Assembly (NCBI RefSeq): GCF_015831345.1
Contig: NZ_JADWYS010000001.1
Coordinates: 3,748,618-3,812,617, forward strand
Direction of reading: 5' to 3'
DNA: 64,000 bases
Source: Caenimonas aquaedulcis
GTDB lineage: Bacteria; Pseudomonadota; Gammaproteobacteria; Burkholderiales; Burkholderiaceae_C
Shown here: positions 17,973 through 26,692 of the stretch, in pieces
How the letters are laid out: each line of letters opens with the position of its first letter
How positions within the stretch are numbered: the first letter of the stretch is position 1
Notes under the pieces: model-generated
Told to the model about the DNA's origin: nothing
Database searches by the model: none
The model's input: only the letters and a program-made list of their open reading frames with translations
Translations under genes and position numbers: made by a program

Positions 17973-18842
17973 ATGAGAAGAGTCGCGATCGTCGGCGTGG
18001 GCAACATGGGCGGCGCGATGGCGCAGCGCATCCTGGACCAGCGCTGGCCGGTGCAGGTCCACGACATCGACGAGGGCCGCATGGCCGCGCTCGCGGCGCT
18101 GGGCGCGGTGGCGCGCCCCGACCCGGCCGCGGCGGCCATTGGCTGCGGCGTGCTGATCGTCTGCGTGGTGGACGCGGCGCAGGTGGAGGAGGTGCTCTTC
18201 GGCCCCAGGGGCGCCGCGCAGGTGATGCGCGCCGGCCAGGCGGTGCTGCTGTGCCCGACGATCTCGCCGCGCGACGTCGAGGATGTCGCGAAGCGGCTGG
18301 CCGAGCAGGGCATCGCGACGATCGATGCGCCGATGTCCGGCGGCCCGGCGCGAGCGCGCGACGGCACCATGAGCCTGATGGTCGCCTGCGAGGACGCGGT
18401 CTACGAGCGCCAGAAGATGGTGATCGACATCCTGAGCAGCAAGGTGTTCCGCGTGAGCCAGAAGCCGGGCGACGGCGCGCGGACCAAGCTGGTGAACAAC
18501 CTGCTCGCGGGCATCAACCTCGCGGGCGCGGCGGAGGCGCTGGCGATGGGCAAGAGCATGGGCCTGGACCTCTCCCGCACGATGGACGTGATCGAGCAGT
18601 CGAGCGGCCAGAGCTGGATCGGCACCGACCGCATGCGCCGCGCGATCGCGGGCGACTACGCGCCGCGCGCGCATGTGACGCTGCTGCAGAAGGACACGCG
18701 GCTGGCGGTCCAGGCCGCTGCGATCGCCGGGTTCACCGGGCCGCTGGGCGCGGCGACGCAAGCGGTCTTCGCGCGGGCGGTGGAAGCGGGGCTGGGCGAC
18801 CTGGACGACGCGGTGCTGTTCAGGTTGCTGGCCGGCAGTTGA
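17973..18842 (+). CDS. Beta-hydroxyacid dehydrogenase family NAD(P)-dependent oxidoreductase
   Basis: 289 residues of the 3-hydroxyisobutyrate/6-phosphogluconate dehydrogenase family. The N-terminal GVGNMGGAMAQ loop binds NAD(P); DAPMSGGPARARDGTM is the substrate-binding block; KLVNNLLAG holds the catalytic Lys. The substrate is uncertain: 3-hydroxyisobutyrate, tartronate semialdehyde or L-threonate derivatives are all handled by this family. A clear AGAGGAAGG ribosome-binding site precedes the ATG. It follows rodA by 36 nt and precedes the hairpin repeat. Confidence 0.88.
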   Translation: MRRVAIVGVGNMGGAMAQRILDQRWPVQVHDIDEGRMAALAALGAVARPDPAAAAIGCGVLIVCVVDAAQVEEVLFGPRGAAQVMRAGQAVLLCPTISPRDVEDVAKRLAEQGIATIDAPMSGGPARARDGTMSLMVACEDAVYERQKMVIDILSSKVFRVSQKPGDGARTKLVNNLLAGINLAGAAEALAMGKSMGLDLSRTMDVIEQSSGQSWIGTDRMRRAIAGDYAPRAHVTLLQKDTRLAVQAAAIAGFTGPLGAATQAVFARAVEAGLGDLDDAVLFRLLAGS

Positions 18843-18853
18843 TCCGAACTTGG

Positions 18854-18964
18854 CCGGACGCAGAATTCGCAGAGGTTACGCAGAAGAAGCCCAGAAAGAA
18901 CCAAAATGCGTTTGCATTGTTCTTGTCTTCTTTCTGCGTAACTTCTGCGGATTCTGCGTCCGGT
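18854..18964. repeat. Long imperfect inverted repeat (REP/MITE-like hairpin element)
   Basis: The left arm (about 18854-18889, beginning CCGGACGCAGAATTCGCAGA) and right arm (about 18927-18964, ending CTGCGGATTCTGCGTCCGG) are complementary over about 36 bp with two mismatches and one bulge. The interior folds further (AATGC GTTT GCATT), so nearly the whole 111 nt can form one hairpin. Each arm also has CGCAGA repeated three times at about 9-11 nt spacing. It is markedly AT-richer than the flanking genes. There is no T tract or ORF. It looks like a dispersed intergenic palindrome rather than a terminator. Confidence 0.75.
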
Positions 18965-19013: not shown

Positions 19014-21104
19014 ATGACCCAGATCCTGGTCGTCGAGGACGACGACGCCATTCGCAACAACATCATCCGGCTGCTCAAGCTGGAGGGGTTCGAGATCGCC
19101 TCGGCGATCAACGGGCGCGAGGGGCTGGAGCAGGTGCGACGGGCCAGGCCGGACATCGTGATCTCCGACGTGAGCATGCCGGAGATGGACGGCTTCGAGA
19201 TGCTCGAAGCGATCCGCGCGGACCGTGAGCTTGCGGCCACCTCGGTCATGCTGCTCACCGCCCTCGACGACCGCGCCAGCATGCGCCGCGGGATGACGGC
19301 CGGCGCGGACGACTACCTCGCCAAGCCTTTCACTCGCGTCGAACTGCTGGACGCGCTGCAGGGCCTCATGAAGAAGAAGGGGCGCATCGAGCACTCGATC
19401 GAATCGGCCGTGAAGGCGCGCGAGGATTACCTGCGCCAGGCTTTCACCGAGAGCATGGGCGGGCGAGACGCGCCGGCGGGGCGCTTCGACCTCGGGGCGC
19501 CGCAGGGCGCCGTGGCCGACCAGGTGCTGGGCGCGACGGTGCTCTTCGCCGATATCCGCGGCTTCACCTCCCTGGCCGAAAAGCTCGACTCGCGCGAAGT
19601 GGCCGAGCTGCTGACGCAATATTTCGAACGCGTCTGCGACCCCGTCCTCAAGAACGGGGGGCGGCACCTGAAGTTCATCGGCGACGGCATGATGGCCGTC
19701 TTCGCCGATACCTTGAGCGGGGGCTCGCCCTTGCCGGCCGCGCGGCGGGCGATTTCGGCCGCCCTCGGCATGGCGCTGGCGACGCACGAGTTCCGCGCGT
19801 GGATCGACAGGCGTTTCGACCAGCGCGGACTGCCGCCCTTCGCCATCGGCGTGGGCCTGCATGCGGGCGAGGTGACGATCTGCCGCCTCGGCACCATCCA
19901 GAACAAGGAGACGACACCGATCGGCGAGACCGTGAACGTCGCCGCGCGCCTGGAATCCGCGAGCAAGGAACTGGGCTGGACGGTGGTCGCGAGCAGCGCG
20001 GTCATGTCCGAAGCCGGCGAGGGCATCCAGACGGGCGGCATGACGTCGCTCGCCGTGCGGGCGAACAACGGCTACGTGGACGTGGCCGAGATCATCGGCC
20101 TGGTCACCAACCTGGACGACAAGCGCCACGGCATGGCGACGCTCACGGAGCGCGCCGACGAAGTGCGCGATGCGGTGCAGGTCAACTCGGAGATCACCGC
20201 CCGCGCGGTGAAGGGGGCGCTGCAGTCCAAGCTCTCGGCCTTCAAGGAGCACCAGTTCGAAGCCGGGCAGGAGCCGCCCCGCCTGAAGGGCTACCGGCTG
20301 TCGCGCAAGATCGGCGCGGGCGGCATGACGGAGGTCTACCTCGCCGTGCGCGAGTCCGACGGCCTGCCGGTGGTGCTGAAGGTGCTGGACGCGAGCGGCA
20401 AGGGCGTGAGCGAGCACCTGTCGCGCTTCATCCAGGAGTACACGCTGCTCTCGCGCATCGACCACCCGAACGTGATCCGCATCTACGACCAGGGCTTCAC
20501 GGACGACCACGCGTACATCGCGATGGAATATTTCGAGCAGGGCGACCTGCGCGCGGAGATCACGGCCGGCATGAGCCAGCAGCGCGTGCTGGCGATCGTG
20601 ACGCAGGTCGCGCAGGCGCTCGACGCGATCCACGCGCGCGGCATCATCCACCGCGACCTGAAGCCCGAGAACATCATGCGGCGCGAGGGCGGCCGGATTT
20701 CGCTGGCGGATTTCGGGATCGCCAAGTCGATGCTGCAGGCGGAGAACATGGCGCTCACGCAGACGCGCCACGGCGACGTCGTGGGCACGCCCTATTACCT
20801 GAGCCCCGAGCAGGCGGCGGGGCACCCGATCGGGCCGCAATCGGACCTGTACAGCCTGGGCGTGATGATGTTCGAGATGCTGGTGGGCCACCGGCCCTTC
20901 CGCGCGGAGTCGCTCAACCTGCTGCTCGCGCACCACATCTCGGCGCCGACGCCCGCGTTGCCGCAGGCGCATGCGAGCCTGCAGCCGGTGGTGGAACGGC
21001 TGATGGCGAAGGACCCCGGGGCGCGCTATGCCACCCCGGCGGAGCTGCTCGCGGACCTCGACCAGCGGGCGCTGCTGCAAACTGTTACCGGCCCGGGCGG
21101 CTGA
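19014..21104 (+). CDS. Receiver / class III adenylate cyclase / Ser-Thr protein kinase fusion
   Basis: 696-residue soluble signalling protein with three complete domains. (1) Response-regulator receiver, residues 1-120: acidic pair at 9-11, phospho-acceptor Asp52 in SDVSMPEMDG, Thr82, Lys104 in AKPF. (2) Class III nucleotidyl cyclase, about 170-365: metal Asp180 (LFADIRGFTSL) and Asp224 (FIGDGMMAVF), base-selecting Lys220 and Thr301 as in class IIIb adenylate cyclases, transition-state Asn308 and Arg312. (3) Hanks-type kinase, about 425-690: GAGGMTEVYLA, Lys456, Glu475, HRDLKPEN (546-553), DFG (566-568), GTPYYLSPEQ. No membrane segment. All catalytic residues are present, so phosphorylation, cAMP synthesis and Ser/Thr phosphorylation all look possible. 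No dedicated histidine kinase is adjacent. The output is unknown. Confidence 0.92.
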   Translation: MTQILVVEDDDAIRNNIIRLLKLEGFEIASAINGREGLEQVRRARPDIVISDVSMPEMDGFEMLEAIRADRELAATSVMLLTALDDRASMRRGMTAGADDYLAKPFTRVELLDALQGLMKKKGRIEHSIESAVKAREDYLRQAFTESMGGRDAPAGRFDLGAPQGAVADQVLGATVLFADIRGFTSLAEKLDSREVAELLTQYFERVCDPVLKNGGRHLKFIGDGMMAVFADTLSGGSPLPAARRAISAALGMALATHEFRAWIDRRFDQRGLPPFAIGVGLHAGEVTICRLGTIQNKETTPIGETVNVAARLESASKELGWTVVASSAVMSEAGEGIQTGGMTSLAVRANNGYVDVAEIIGLVTNLDDKRHGMATLTERADEVRDAVQVNSEITARAVKGALQSKLSAFKEHQFEAGQEPPRLKGYRLSRKIGAGGMTEVYLAVRESDGLPVVLKVLDASGKGVSEHLSRFIQEYTLLSRIDHPNVIRIYDQGFTDDHAYIAMEYFEQGDLRAEITAGMSQQRVLAIVTQVAQALDAIHARGIIHRDLKPENIMRREGGRISLADFGIAKSMLQAENMALTQTRHGDVVGTPYYLSPEQAAGHPIGPQSDLYSLGVMMFEMLVGHRPFRAESLNLLLAHHISAPTPALPQAHASLQPVVERLMAKDPGARYATPAELLADLDQRALLQTVTGPGG

Positions 21105-21159: not shown

Positions 21160-22620
21160 ATGATCTCCCGCGAACCCACCATCGAGCGCCTCGCCACGGC
21201 GCAGCGGCTCCTCCTCGAGCCTTTCGGCCTCAACGAATCCCATCTCTCCAAAGCCCTGTCCGAAATCGCGACGCATCGCGTGGACGACGCGGACTTGTAC
21301 TTCCAGTACACGCGCAGCGAAGGCTGGAGCCTCGAAGAGGGCATCGTCAAGACCGGCAGCTTCAGCATCGACCAGGGCGTCGGCGTGCGTGCCGTGAGCG
21401 GCGAGAAGACGGCTTTCGCGTACTCCGACGACATTTCCGAGGCGTCGCTGCTGGACGCCGCGCGCACGGTGCGCACCATCGCCGCCGGCACCGGCAAGGG
21501 CCGGGTGAAGGTCGGCGCGCGCAAGATCGCCGGCGCCCGCTCGCTCTACCACGGCCTCGACCCGATCGCCTCGCTCGACAGCACGGCCAAGGTCCAGCTG
21601 CTCGAACGCGCCGAGAAGCTCGCGCGCTCCAAGGACCCGCGCGTCGCGCAGGTGATGGCGGGCCTCGCGAGCGAATACGACGTCGTGATGGTCGCGCGCG
21701 CGGACGGCACGCTCGCCGCGGACGTGCGGCCGCTGGTGCGCCTGTCCATCACGGTGATCGCCGAGCAGAACGGGCGCCGCGAGGTGGGCTCGGGCGGGGG
21801 CGGCGGGCGTTTCGGCCTGGAGTATTTCAGCGACGAGCAGGTGGAGTCGTACGTCGACGACGCCGTGCGCGCGGCGCTCACCAACCTCGAGTCGCGGCCC
21901 GCGCCGGCCGGCGAGATGACGGTCGTGCTCGGCTCCGGCTGGCCCGGCATCCTGCTGCACGAGGCCATCGGCCACGGGCTGGAGGGCGACTTCAACCGCA
22001 AGGGCTCGAGCGCGTTTTCGGGCCGCGTGGGCAAGCGCGTCGCGGCCAAGGGCGTCACCGTGCTGGACGACGGCACCATCGCCGACCGGCGGGGCTCCCT
22101 CAACGTGGACGACGAAGGCAACCCGAGCCAGCGCAACGTGCTGATCGAGGACGGCATCCTGCGCGGCTACATCCAGGATTCGCTCAACGCGCGCCTGATG
22201 GGCGTCGCGCCCACGGGCAATGGCCGCCGCGAGAGCTACGCGCACGTGCCCATGCCGCGCATGACCAACACCTACATGCTCGGCGGCGACAAAGTCCCCG
22301 AAGAAATCGTGGCGAGCATCAAGAAGGGCCTGTACGCGACCAATTTCGGCGGCGGGCAGGTGGACATCACCTCGGGCAAGTTCGTGTTCTCCGCGAGCGA
22401 AGCCTACTGGGTGGAAAACGGGAAGATCCTCTATCCCGTCAAGGGCGCGACCATCGTGGGCAATGGCCCGGACGCACTCACGCGCGTGACGATGGTCGGC
22501 AACGACATGAAACTGGACACCGGCGTGGGCACCTGCGGCAAGGAAGGCCAGAGCGTGCCGGTGGGCGTGGGCCAGCCGACGCTGCGCATCGACGGGCTGA
22601 CCGTCGGCGGCACGGCCTGA
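21160..22620 (+). CDS. tldD: TldD, metalloprotease subunit
   Basis: Catalytic subunit of the TldD/TldE (PmbA) metalloprotease that degrades unfolded peptides and matures microcin-type precursors. 486 residues. The zinc motif HExxxH is seen as [13 protein letters not shown], with downstream GTCGKEGQ and the conserved YSYGG-free TldD core. The partner tldE/pmbA is not in the window, as is common when the two genes are unlinked. A TAGAAT box (21148-21153) ends 6 nt before the ATG and there is no Shine-Dalgarno, suggesting a leaderless transcript. Confidence 0.95.
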
Positions 22621-24621: not shown

Positions 24622-25632
24622 ATGACCATCGAACTACCTGTCCTGCGCTTGGGCCTGGCAGGGTTTTCCGCGCAACAGCAGGAGGCCCTGGGCGCAGCGC
24701 TGTCCGACGCGTCGGGCCACCTGCGCTGGGAGATCTCCGCGTTCGAGGAGGCCGATGCATGGTGGGTCAACGGGGCGCGCACCCATCTCGTTGCCGAGGG
24801 AACGATCCGCGTGCGGGCCGCGGCGCCCGGCAGCCGCGCAGTGCAGCTGCACCTCCCGGACATCGACCGGCCCATCGCCTTCGCGCTGCCGCTCGTCGCC
24901 AGCGCGCTGGAGCCCGGCTACAGCTTCGACCCGAAGTCGCCCGAAAGCATCGCGGCCATCCTGGCCGAATTCGAGGGCTGGCTCGCACCGATCACCGCGC
25001 AGTTCTGCCTCGCCTCCGAGATCGTGGAAAACCAGAGCGCGCTCGGCCGCGGCGTCTATGACTTCGGCGTGGGCGGCCGGCTGCTCGCCGTGGTGGACAT
25101 GCATGGCGAAGTGGGCGTGCTGCCGGGGCTCGATCCGAACGAGTTCGAGAATGCCGAGTGGCACCCCCGCACCACCAGGGCGCGCGTGCCGGACAACTTC
25201 ATCCGCACGACGCTGTCGCAGCTCATGTGGCATTACAGCGTCCGCACCCAGCGCGACCTGCTTCCCCGCCACTACCGTACCGGCCTGCTGTACTTCCGCC
25301 GGCCGCCGCGCCTGCCTGCCCGGCTGCTTCAGGACACGCACTTGCTGCTGATGCGCGAGCTCGCGACGGCCCCCGCGAGCTTCGAGGCCCTGCGCATGCG
25401 CACCGGCATGGCCGCGCCGCAGCTCGCGCACGCGCTCGCCGCGCTGTACTTCGTGGGCAGTATCACCTCCAACCCGAAGCGCGCCACGCCGTCGCCCGTA
25501 CGCCGGGACGACACCGAAGGCAGCCTGTACAGCCAGTTGCCCTCCGGGCTGGATTCGGTGTCGCCGGCCGAGCCGCCCCGCCTGCCGCCGATGCAGGATT
25601 TCACGGCGCCTGCGCCGATCGGGCCACGGTAG
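24622..25632 (+). CDS. Unknown protein, first of a tandem paralogous pair
   Basis: 336 residues, soluble; no family recognised. N-terminal region (about 1-55): RLGLAGFSAQQQEAL then RWEISAFEEADAWWVNGAR, a beta-alpha-beta-like order. Middle region (about 60-200) includes DIDRPIAFALPL, GVYDFGVGGRLLAVVDM and LPGLDPNEFENAEWHPR. C-terminal region (about 205-300) with RDLLPRHYR, LLLMRELATAP and GMAAPQLAHALAALYFVGSI looks like a winged-helix unit. The final 35 residues are Pro-rich. The next gene, 19 nt downstream, is a clear paralogue with the same blocks in the same order. Confidence 0.8.
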   Translation: MTIELPVLRLGLAGFSAQQQEALGAALSDASGHLRWEISAFEEADAWWVNGARTHLVAEGTIRVRAAAPGSRAVQLHLPDIDRPIAFALPLVASALEPGYSFDPKSPESIAAILAEFEGWLAPITAQFCLASEIVENQSALGRGVYDFGVGGRLLAVVDMHGEVGVLPGLDPNEFENAEWHPRTTRARVPDNFIRTTLSQLMWHYSVRTQRDLLPRHYRTGLLYFRRPPRLPARLLQDTHLLLMRELATAPASFEALRMRTGMAAPQLAHALAALYFVGSITSNPKRATPSPVRRDDTEGSLYSQLPSGLDSVSPAEPPRLPPMQDFTAPAPIGPR

Positions 25633-25651
25633 GGCGGGAAGCCGCATCGAC

Positions 25652-26692
25652 ATGTCGATCTCCGACCTGGACGACGTGGGCGTGCTGCCGGAGCAGCCGA
25701 TCCTCTGGCTGGGCATGGCGGGTTTTTCGGCGGAACAGCGTGCGCTGCTTCAATCCAGGCTGGTGCTGCCCGACGGCCATGCACGCTGGCGCGTCTGCAG
25801 TTTCGGCGAGGCGGATGCATGGTGGATCAACGGCGCGAAAGCCACGATGGCCGATGGCGGCCTGCGCGTCGCCGGGGGCGCGCCCACCGAACGGCCGCTG
25901 AAGCTGCATCTCGGCGAGGTGGACCGCCCCGTGGCTTTCGCGCTGCCGCTCGCCAGTGCCGGCGTCGACGCGCGCTGCACGTTCGATCCCGCGTCCGAGG
26001 CGAGCATCCAGGGTGCGCTCGCGCAGTGCGAAAGCTGGCTGTGGCTCACGCGCGCGGAGTTCGTGCTCGGCCGGCGGATCGTGCGGCGCGAGCCCGAAGC
26101 ACGACGCGGTGTGTATCACGTGAACCTCGCGGGCAAGCTGCTCGCCGTGATCGACTTCCAGCAGGGCCGCGCGGCCATCCTGCCGCGCGCGCACCCGGTG
26201 GACCTGTGGGAGGCGCAATGGGACAAGCGACCGGTCGGCGCGCACGACCTTCCGGAGAGCTTCATTCCTTCATCGCCCGCGCAGCTCGCGTGGGCCTACG
26301 TGCGTCGCACCGACCATGACCTGCTGCCGCCGCGCTACCGCGCCGACACCATCCACTACCGGCGCGCGCCCGGCGTTCCGCTGCGCTGGTTGCGCGACTC
26401 GCAGCTGATGCTGCTGCGCGAGCTGTCGGTGCAGCCCGCCACGCTGGCGACGCTGCGCCAGCTCACGGGCCTCGCGATGACGCAGATCGAGCACGACCTC
26501 ACCTGCCTGTACTACGCGGGCGCGATCACCACGAGGGCAGGCAAATCCGCGGCGCGGGACAGCGCCCGGCGCGACAGCGAGCCGAACCTGTCGGAGCCCG
26601 GGTTCGAATCCCTGTTGCGCGCCGATGCGCACGTGCAGCAGGCGAGCGACCTGACCGCACCCGCGCGGCTCGAACGCTGGCGTCCCCGCTAG
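25652..26692 (+). CDS. Unknown protein, second of a tandem paralogous pair
   Basis: 346 residues, paralogous to the preceding gene. Shared blocks: LWLGMAGFSAEQRALL, RVCSFGEADAWWINGAK, EVDRPVAFALPLAS, GVYHVNLAGKLLAVIDF, DHDLLPPRYRADTIHYRR and MLLRELSVQPATLATLRQLTGLA followed by YYAGAIT. The paired Trp with Asn-Gly (WWxNGA, 57-62) is the most rigid block. The C-terminal winged-helix-like region suggests DNA or protein binding; this is inference. It converges on mpl, with the stop codons overlapping by 4 nt. No signal peptide or membrane segment. Confidence 0.8.
   Translation: MSISDLDDVGVLPEQPILWLGMAGFSAEQRALLQSRLVLPDGHARWRVCSFGEADAWWINGAKATMADGGLRVAGGAPTERPLKLHLGEVDRPVAFALPLASAGVDARCTFDPASEASIQGALAQCESWLWLTRAEFVLGRRIVRREPEARRGVYHVNLAGKLLAVIDFQQGRAAILPRAHPVDLWEAQWDKRPVGAHDLPESFIPSSPAQLAWAYVRRTDHDLLPPRYRADTIHYRRAPGVPLRWLRDSQLMLLRELSVQPATLATLRQLTGLAMTQIEHDLTCLYYAGAITTRAGKSAARDSARRDSEPNLSEPGFESLLRADAHVQQASDLTAPARLERWRPR

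Follow-up and report, generated by a model that had tools for sequence, protein, structure and literature searches.

A family of proteins joining a receiver, a class III cyclase and a Hanks-type kinase in one chain, with a member in Caenimonas aquaedulcis

Results

A gene for a receiver, a class III cyclase and a Hanks-type Ser/Thr kinase in one chain lies in the window, the 64,000-nt stretch of DNA analyzed here. Its open reading frame (ORF) occupies 19014–21104 on the forward strand, from an ATG at 19014 to a TGA at 21102–21104 that is included in these coordinates, and reads as the single 696-residue product described in the original prediction. Its neighbors on the same strand are a gene of the NAD-binding 3-hydroxyisobutyrate dehydrogenase family (17973–18842, +; PF03446, PF14833) and a TldD/PmbA family gene (21160–22620, +; PF01523, PF19289, PF19290), both of which keep this position in relatives. 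Pfam searches of eight neighboring ORFs returned RNB, UPF0227, FtsW/RodA, NAD-binding dehydrogenase, TldD and DAHP synthase, with two ORFs giving no match at E ≤ 1e-5. One source names some relatives after PpkA, the type VI secretion kinase, whose usual context is a type VI secretion gene neighborhood; we rejected this identity, as the eight scanned ORFs include no type VI genes. On the downstream side of the DAHP synthase gene, 24622–26692 holds a pair of ORFs of about 340 aa that lie next to each other and resemble one another. At least one of the pair occupies this place in many relatives, and a Pfam search with the first gave nothing at E ≤ 1e-5.

The 171-bp gap upstream of the gene contains an interspersed repeat. 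This near-perfect palindrome of about 107 bp (18858–18964, no strand assigned) has 68 matches in the genome over both strands, corresponding to 36 distinct places, three of them short and partial, and its folding z-score is -10.8. It occupies the gap that holds a histidine kinase gene in three members of the genus.

All three predicted domains score above their curated Pfam cut-offs. Response_reg (PF00072) matches residues 4–115 with 100.7 bits against a cut-off of 30.2, Guanylate_cyc (PF00211) residues 174–325 with 53.5 against 21.9, and Pkinase residues 427–673 with 175.9 against 31.7. Every catalytic residue named in the original prediction is also in place. The receiver (19023–19358, +) has its phospho-acceptor Asp52 at 19167–19169 together with the acidic pair Glu8/Asp9, Thr82 and Lys104, and thus the full residue set of a response regulator. 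The cyclase domain, which spans residues 170–363 in the structural model (19521–20102, +), carries Asp180/Asp224, Lys220/Thr301 and Asn308/Arg312, which we take to be the metal, substrate and transition-state pairs of a class III cyclase, and we assigned it to class IIIb on the assumption that a Thr at the position of Thr301 marks that class. The kinase domain (20292–21032, +) has the Hanks-type Lys456/Glu475 salt bridge, the HRD Asp548, the DFG Asp566 and the glycine loop. Candidate activation-loop residues are Thr582 and Thr584, the latter invariant in both family alignments (A1, A2).

Solved structures match both catalytic domains. The best match to the cyclase part is 1wc0 (E 2.6e-21), with CyaB 3r5g also good (E 2.4e-20); for the kinase part, StkP and PknB come out best. 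The Asp, Lys, Thr, Asn and Arg positions of the cyclase align with 1wc0, and Thr301 pairs with the Thr of the TAIG motif in 1wc0/1wc1, presumably Arthrospira CyaC. A VIA fold comparison covered mainly the kinase and barely the receiver and cyclase folds.

Long predicted helices connect the domains. An AlphaFold2 model built with 67 sequences (mean pLDDT 79, pTM 0.52) contains three folded domains linked by helices, and its pTM means that it gives no firm relative placement of the three. The first helix, of 40 residues (108–147; 19335–19454, +), extends receiver α5 towards the cyclase, with pLDDT below 50 from about residue 127. The second, of 32 residues (381–412; 20154–20249, +), lies between cyclase and kinase and carries the motif NSEITARAVKGAL, recognized from the model and the alignment. 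The activation loop (568–589) has pLDDT below 50. We considered whether helix 381–412 is lost whenever the receiver or cyclase goes, which holds in two trimmed relatives described below (L187 and L168) and, by eye, in a third (L198); because the motif is also altered in two members with all domains intact (L184 and L226), we did not take helix loss as evidence.

The architecture is far from unique. All three Pfam domains were found in 120 of the 120 best-listed proteins (of 6160 over threshold), the window's own included, and the other 119 are 74–85% identical to it over 97–100% of its length. Around a distant member, 117 of 120 among the matches listed have all three domains, and the other three lack the receiver. 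Source names of the matching proteins include Ramlibacter, Caenimonas and Burkholderiales. With more than 200 listed database proteins sharing the receiver-cyclase-kinase order, the description of three signaling systems "usually kept apart" was too strong. The survey did bear out that no such protein appears to have been characterized: we found none in open-licence PMC papers (subscription papers, bioRxiv and domain-database listings lay outside this scope), and the available portions of PMC2176072, PMC12471899 and PMC9239204 make no mention of the fusion. A domain-database listing of the architecture may possibly already exist.

Receiver-cyclase-kinase proteins are a real family, seen in our genome samples almost only in one order and patchy there. 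Own genome included, matches occurred in 16 of 399 genomes of the family sample at E ≤ 1e-100 (15 near full length), 17 of 399 of the order sample at 1e-90, 2 of 398 of the phylum sample at 1e-90 (the other from the same family) and, at 1e-80, only the window's own of 369 in the class sample; these samples overlap one another, and more divergent members lie under the thresholds. In the genus sample 49 of 60 genomes had a match at 1e-90, own included, many of them a two-domain paralogue rather than a full-length protein; 25 genomes carry a match of at least 63% identity over the whole or nearly the whole length, and one (G1190) has it split over two contigs. The family is apparently sizeable and unstudied. 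A scan of the genome collection with alignment A1 was swamped by ordinary kinases, and only one of the 80 loci kept (L099) spans the query. One genus member, whose own tldD locus is empty, carries a three-domain copy (L066, G1189:C326) that groups with the copy of another genus (L024), reflecting either gene transfer or a mis-binned contig.

Across the genus and its neighboring genera the gene keeps one address, with the dehydrogenase gene on one side and tldD on the other. The two flank it in all 22 syntenic loci (18 of the 24 other full-length genus copies, fetched with flanks, and four from neighboring genera), mostly directly; a few copies are set off by several hundred bases or by one or two intervening genes. 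Where genus members lack the gene at this site, tldD has rodA or the dehydrogenase gene within about 140 bp at 24 of 25 fetched tldD loci, L195 having neither. Genome G1168 (L198) was set apart from these 25, as it carries a trimmed gene.

Four genus members carry trimmed forms at this same locus, each in frame and each with its domain set confirmed by Pfam. L168 (414 aa) and L198 (441 aa) are receiver-kinase proteins without a cyclase, probably through one event, since they are sisters in the tree. L187 is a cyclase-kinase protein without a receiver, whose start codon is uncertain, and L167 (410 aa) is a receiver-cyclase protein without a kinase. Catalytic residues of the remaining domains are intact apart from Lys220, which is Arg in L167. 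Two-domain forms with intact residues indicate that any pair of domains can exist without the third. These counts exclude G1204 (L065/L214), in which neighboring genes are frameshifted too.

All three domains are under purifying selection in the window's clade. Median dN/dS, obtained by a simple method on 15 chosen close sequences, was 0.17 for the receiver, 0.18 for the cyclase and 0.27 for the kinase. The first linker gave 0.39 and the second 0.28, so that the latter is no less constrained than the kinase. Between the window protein and four close orthologues, values were 0.13–0.14 for the receiver, 0.12 for the cyclase and 0.19–0.28 for the kinase. Pfam profiles, conservation and low dN/dS rule out a chance or mis-framed ORF, and the catalytic residues and purifying selection rule out that the cyclase of the window protein is already degenerate. 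The gene is often absent, with rodA or the dehydrogenase gene beside tldD at 24 of the 25 gene-less loci, and four genus members lack a domain, as might be expected of a fusion that is decaying and has lost the joint action of its domains. Such decay is already disfavored by the low dN/dS of all three domains, by trimmed forms that are in frame and otherwise intact, and by the presence of the gene in many genera, and we consider it very improbable.

Elsewhere in the family, catalytic residues of the cyclase are often altered. All six cyclase positions are intact in 21 of 25 full-length genus members, and the other four each have one change (Lys220Arg in L012 and L050, Arg312Gln in L051, Thr301Met in L054). 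Outside the window's clade the cyclase is often altered with the kinase intact (L017–L019, L020, L024, L039, L040, L041). Lys456, Glu475, Asp548 and Asp566 are kept in 58–59 of 60 family rows, the misses being L002, which has no kinase, and L065 for two residues, from an assembly full of frameshifts. This alignment took in 60 of 68 loci, omitting the kinase-only L003 and L004 and the too weakly matching L005–L010; the tree omitted the partial rows L002, L025, L037, L061, L065, L067 and L068 and used four of 20 two-domain paralogues. These paralogues (L188, L235–L253), which lack the receiver, have Asp180, Lys220, Asn308 and Arg312 replaced in 20 of 20, Asp224 kept in 20 of 20 and Thr301 in two, with kinase residues intact and the cyclase-like region still aligned over 97–99% of its length. 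In the one paralogue scanned (L188), Pfam detected no cyclase at E ≤ 0.001.

These losses raise a kinase-centered explanation, in which the Ser/Thr kinase provides the output and the cyclase domain serves chiefly for regulation and dimerization and perhaps as a nucleotide sensor, whether or not it makes cAMP. Near-invariant kinase residues argue for it, as do the cyclases altered outside the clade, the single changes in four of 25 genus members and the paralogues that keep a cyclase-like region with four of its residues replaced. Against it, most genus members (21 of 25) have an intact cyclase, constraint on this domain in the window's clade equals or exceeds that on the kinase, and L167 retained receiver and cyclase without the kinase. 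Because the searches favored kinase-bearing relatives, tilting the count towards this explanation, the sequences are only suggestive of the kinase as the constant part of the family. We judge the kinase-centered explanation unlikely.

No histidine kinase or PP2C_2-type phosphatase was detected in the window, in agreement with the original prediction. No ORF there matched an ATPase profile built from ten neighbors of relatives (E ≤ 1e-6), and none of the genome's three PF13672 (PP2C_2) matches falls there. The further suggestion that the protein is an orphan describes this window but not its relatives, which are linked to histidine kinases at 13 of 17 loci elsewhere and, in three genus members, at the same locus. 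The orphan state of the window's gene therefore looks local and secondary.

Histidine kinase linkage tracks an intact receiver, which supports the predicted gating of the protein by a phosphorelay, by way of its relatives. At sites other than the window's locus, 13 of 17 sampled relatives with an intact receiver have a histidine kinase no more than 700 bp away, 10 of the 13 on the same strand, compared with 0 of 6 whose receiver is dead or missing (Fisher p=0.002, a guide only, the sequences being related). Receiver-less two-domain paralogues likewise had none within 700 bp (0 of 20), and a rough background was 13 matches among 204 distant ORFs of the same stretches, spurious high-GC ORFs included. 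Three loci whose receiver is unreadable in one frame (L225, L229, L234) were set apart; all have a histidine kinase, and counting them as intact gives 16 of 20. One of the 17, L230, has Thr82 replaced by Ala and no histidine kinase within 700 bp. Since ten of the neighbors counted supplied the ATPase profile, kinases of their kind may be detected more easily than others; CheA-type kinases score too weakly for the 700-bp count. By Pfam the linked kinases include PAS histidine kinases (L173, L176, L177, L179, L181, L182, L183) and hybrid histidine kinases (L178, L180, L184). Beyond the 700-bp count, a weak HATPase ORF, CheA-like or other, lies 1.7–2.2 kb downstream of 19 of the 20 two-domain paralogues, on the same strand. 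The scan of one of them (L188) identified this ORF as CheA and showed a second small kinase ORF in the interval.

At the window's own locus linkage is rarer, with a histidine kinase within 700 bp in 4 of 23 receiver-intact loci and none in the other 19, the window included. Three of the four (L150, L155, L157) have the kinase gene between the dehydrogenase gene and the receiver-cyclase-kinase gene, ending 0–19 bp upstream of the latter on the same strand. These kinases are 68–70% identical to one another and about 54% identical to the kinase beside the copy at L173, and that of L150, the only one of the three scanned, is PAS-PAS-HisKA-HATPase. The fourth (L166) is a different kinase and divergently transcribed. 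The three linked members stand apart from one another in the tree, which makes repeated loss of an ancestral kinase partner probable, with repeated gain as the alternative, as some forks are weakly supported.

The window's own genome offers candidate partners. It has 48 histidine-kinase-like matches, none of them close to the linked histidine kinase; the best is 44% identical over part. L254 is a 7TM-PAS-PAS histidine kinase matching the linked kinase at 44% over residues 126–495, and L255 a PAS histidine kinase matching at 49% over 246–495. Neither has a receiver match within 5 kb among the genome matches listed, which makes both candidates to act in trans.

A true orphan, with a receiver driven by small-molecule phosphodonors or by the fused Ser/Thr kinase and no longer by a histidine kinase in this genome, would also fit a window and a genome without a close counterpart of the linked kinase, as well as the probable repeated loss of that kinase across the tree, some of whose forks are weak. 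The receiver is nevertheless still constrained and has all its residues, and the 48 histidine-kinase-like matches make partners in trans plausible. We regard a true orphan as improbable.

Discussion

The reading we favor, at somewhat better than even confidence, is that the protein is a response regulator whose single chain has two enzymatic outputs, switched by phosphorylation-driven dimerization and served in this genome by a histidine kinase in trans. It is the best explanation we can offer of the domains and their residues, the selection on them, the histidine kinase association in relatives, the natural domain absences and the helices between domains. We infer that both enzymes are active, that dimerization is the switch and that a partner exists in this genome. 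Counted against the proposal were the model's pTM of 0.52, the 19 of 23 syntenic loci without a histidine kinase, and a best own-genome kinase match of only 44% over part. So were the cyclase residues lost in relatives with an intact kinase and changed in 4 of 25 genus members, and the weak HATPase ORF downstream of 19 of 20 receiver-less paralogues.

Dimerization would couple the input to both outputs. It is established separately as the switch for response regulators, class III cyclases and PknB-type kinases. In the proposed sequence of events, a PAS-type histidine kinase would phosphorylate Asp52, and the phosphorylated receiver would dimerize, its long α5 helix pairing with that of its partner. 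The paired helices would set the cyclase domains as an active homodimer, yielding cAMP. The dimer would also bring the two C-terminal kinase domains together for mutual phosphorylation of their activation loops (Thr582/Thr584), and the activated kinases might then phosphorylate downstream proteins. In this genome the histidine kinase would act from elsewhere, with L254 and L255, which have PAS domains and similar cores, as candidates. Possible readers of the cAMP are present in the genome as 20 cyclic-nucleotide-binding matches that pass the cut-off, including one on the C-terminal side of a Hanks kinase.

A bolder extension, which we hold only tentatively, is that one Asp phosphorylation leads by dimerization to both cAMP synthesis and Ser/Thr phosphorylation, with the cyclase gating the kinase and surviving as a regulatory pseudo-cyclase in several lineages and paralogues. 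Such gating would turn around a familiar arrangement. Animal receptor guanylyl cyclases have a kinase-homology domain followed by a cyclase in one helix-joined chain, with the kinase-like domain regulating the cyclase. The window protein has the reverse order with kinase residues intact, and it is the cyclase that looks inactive in some of its relatives.

Parts of the architecture are already known. A receiver-controlled class III cyclase is likewise found in 1wc0 and in the CheY-AC response regulators, a named class in Galperin's census (PMC1183210); CheY-AC regulators end in the cyclase, whereas the window protein continues into a Hanks kinase. The TOMM system kinase/cyclase fusion (TIGR03903) by its name joins a Hanks kinase and a cyclase in one chain, but the window protein has the cyclase before the kinase and a receiver in the lead, and it scores 140.4 bits on this profile against a cut-off of 705.75, through the kinase part only (profile positions 6–243 of 1267). 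Compared with the PASTA kinases PknB/Stk1, it is receiver-led and has no PASTA match, and its kinase part alone matches the PknB PASTA kinase profile (NF033483), at 249.9 bits against a cut-off of 450. Signaling-helix proteins likewise have a helix between a receiver and the catalytic domain that follows it, and the predicted helices 108–147 and 381–412 may or may not be S-helices; the signaling-helix survey reports no S-helix preceding a eukaryote-type Ser/Thr kinase (PMC1592074). Receiver-cyclase regulators and kinase/cyclase fusions are thus already known, and for all three domains in one chain open-licence PMC papers yielded no characterized example.

If both outputs are real, one phosphorylation event would drive two effector chemistries in a fixed ratio and directly link two-component, cAMP and Hanks-kinase signaling. 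The relatives form a natural series, with members that have no receiver, no cyclase, no kinase, a dead cyclase or a dead receiver, and with or without a linked histidine kinase, so which domain gates which can be tested without designed constructs. The locus further lends itself to asking how response regulators come to part with a linked histidine kinase.

Other genes of the same genome combine some of these parts. L002 (G000:C1:2675776-2676888) is a receiver-cyclase paralogue without a kinase, about 36% identical and with five of six cyclase positions changed; it sits near a large receiver/histidine-kinase ORF. L219 (G000:C1:2641289-2645946) is a cluster in which a Hanks kinase ORF accompanies matches to a cyclase and to PP2C. 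L218 (1534–2841 on the minus strand, approximately G000:C1:218533-219840) encodes 436 aa from the start chosen, a Hanks kinase followed by a cyclic-nucleotide-binding domain, and as judged from this domain order it is possibly a cAMP-regulated Ser/Thr kinase in one chain.
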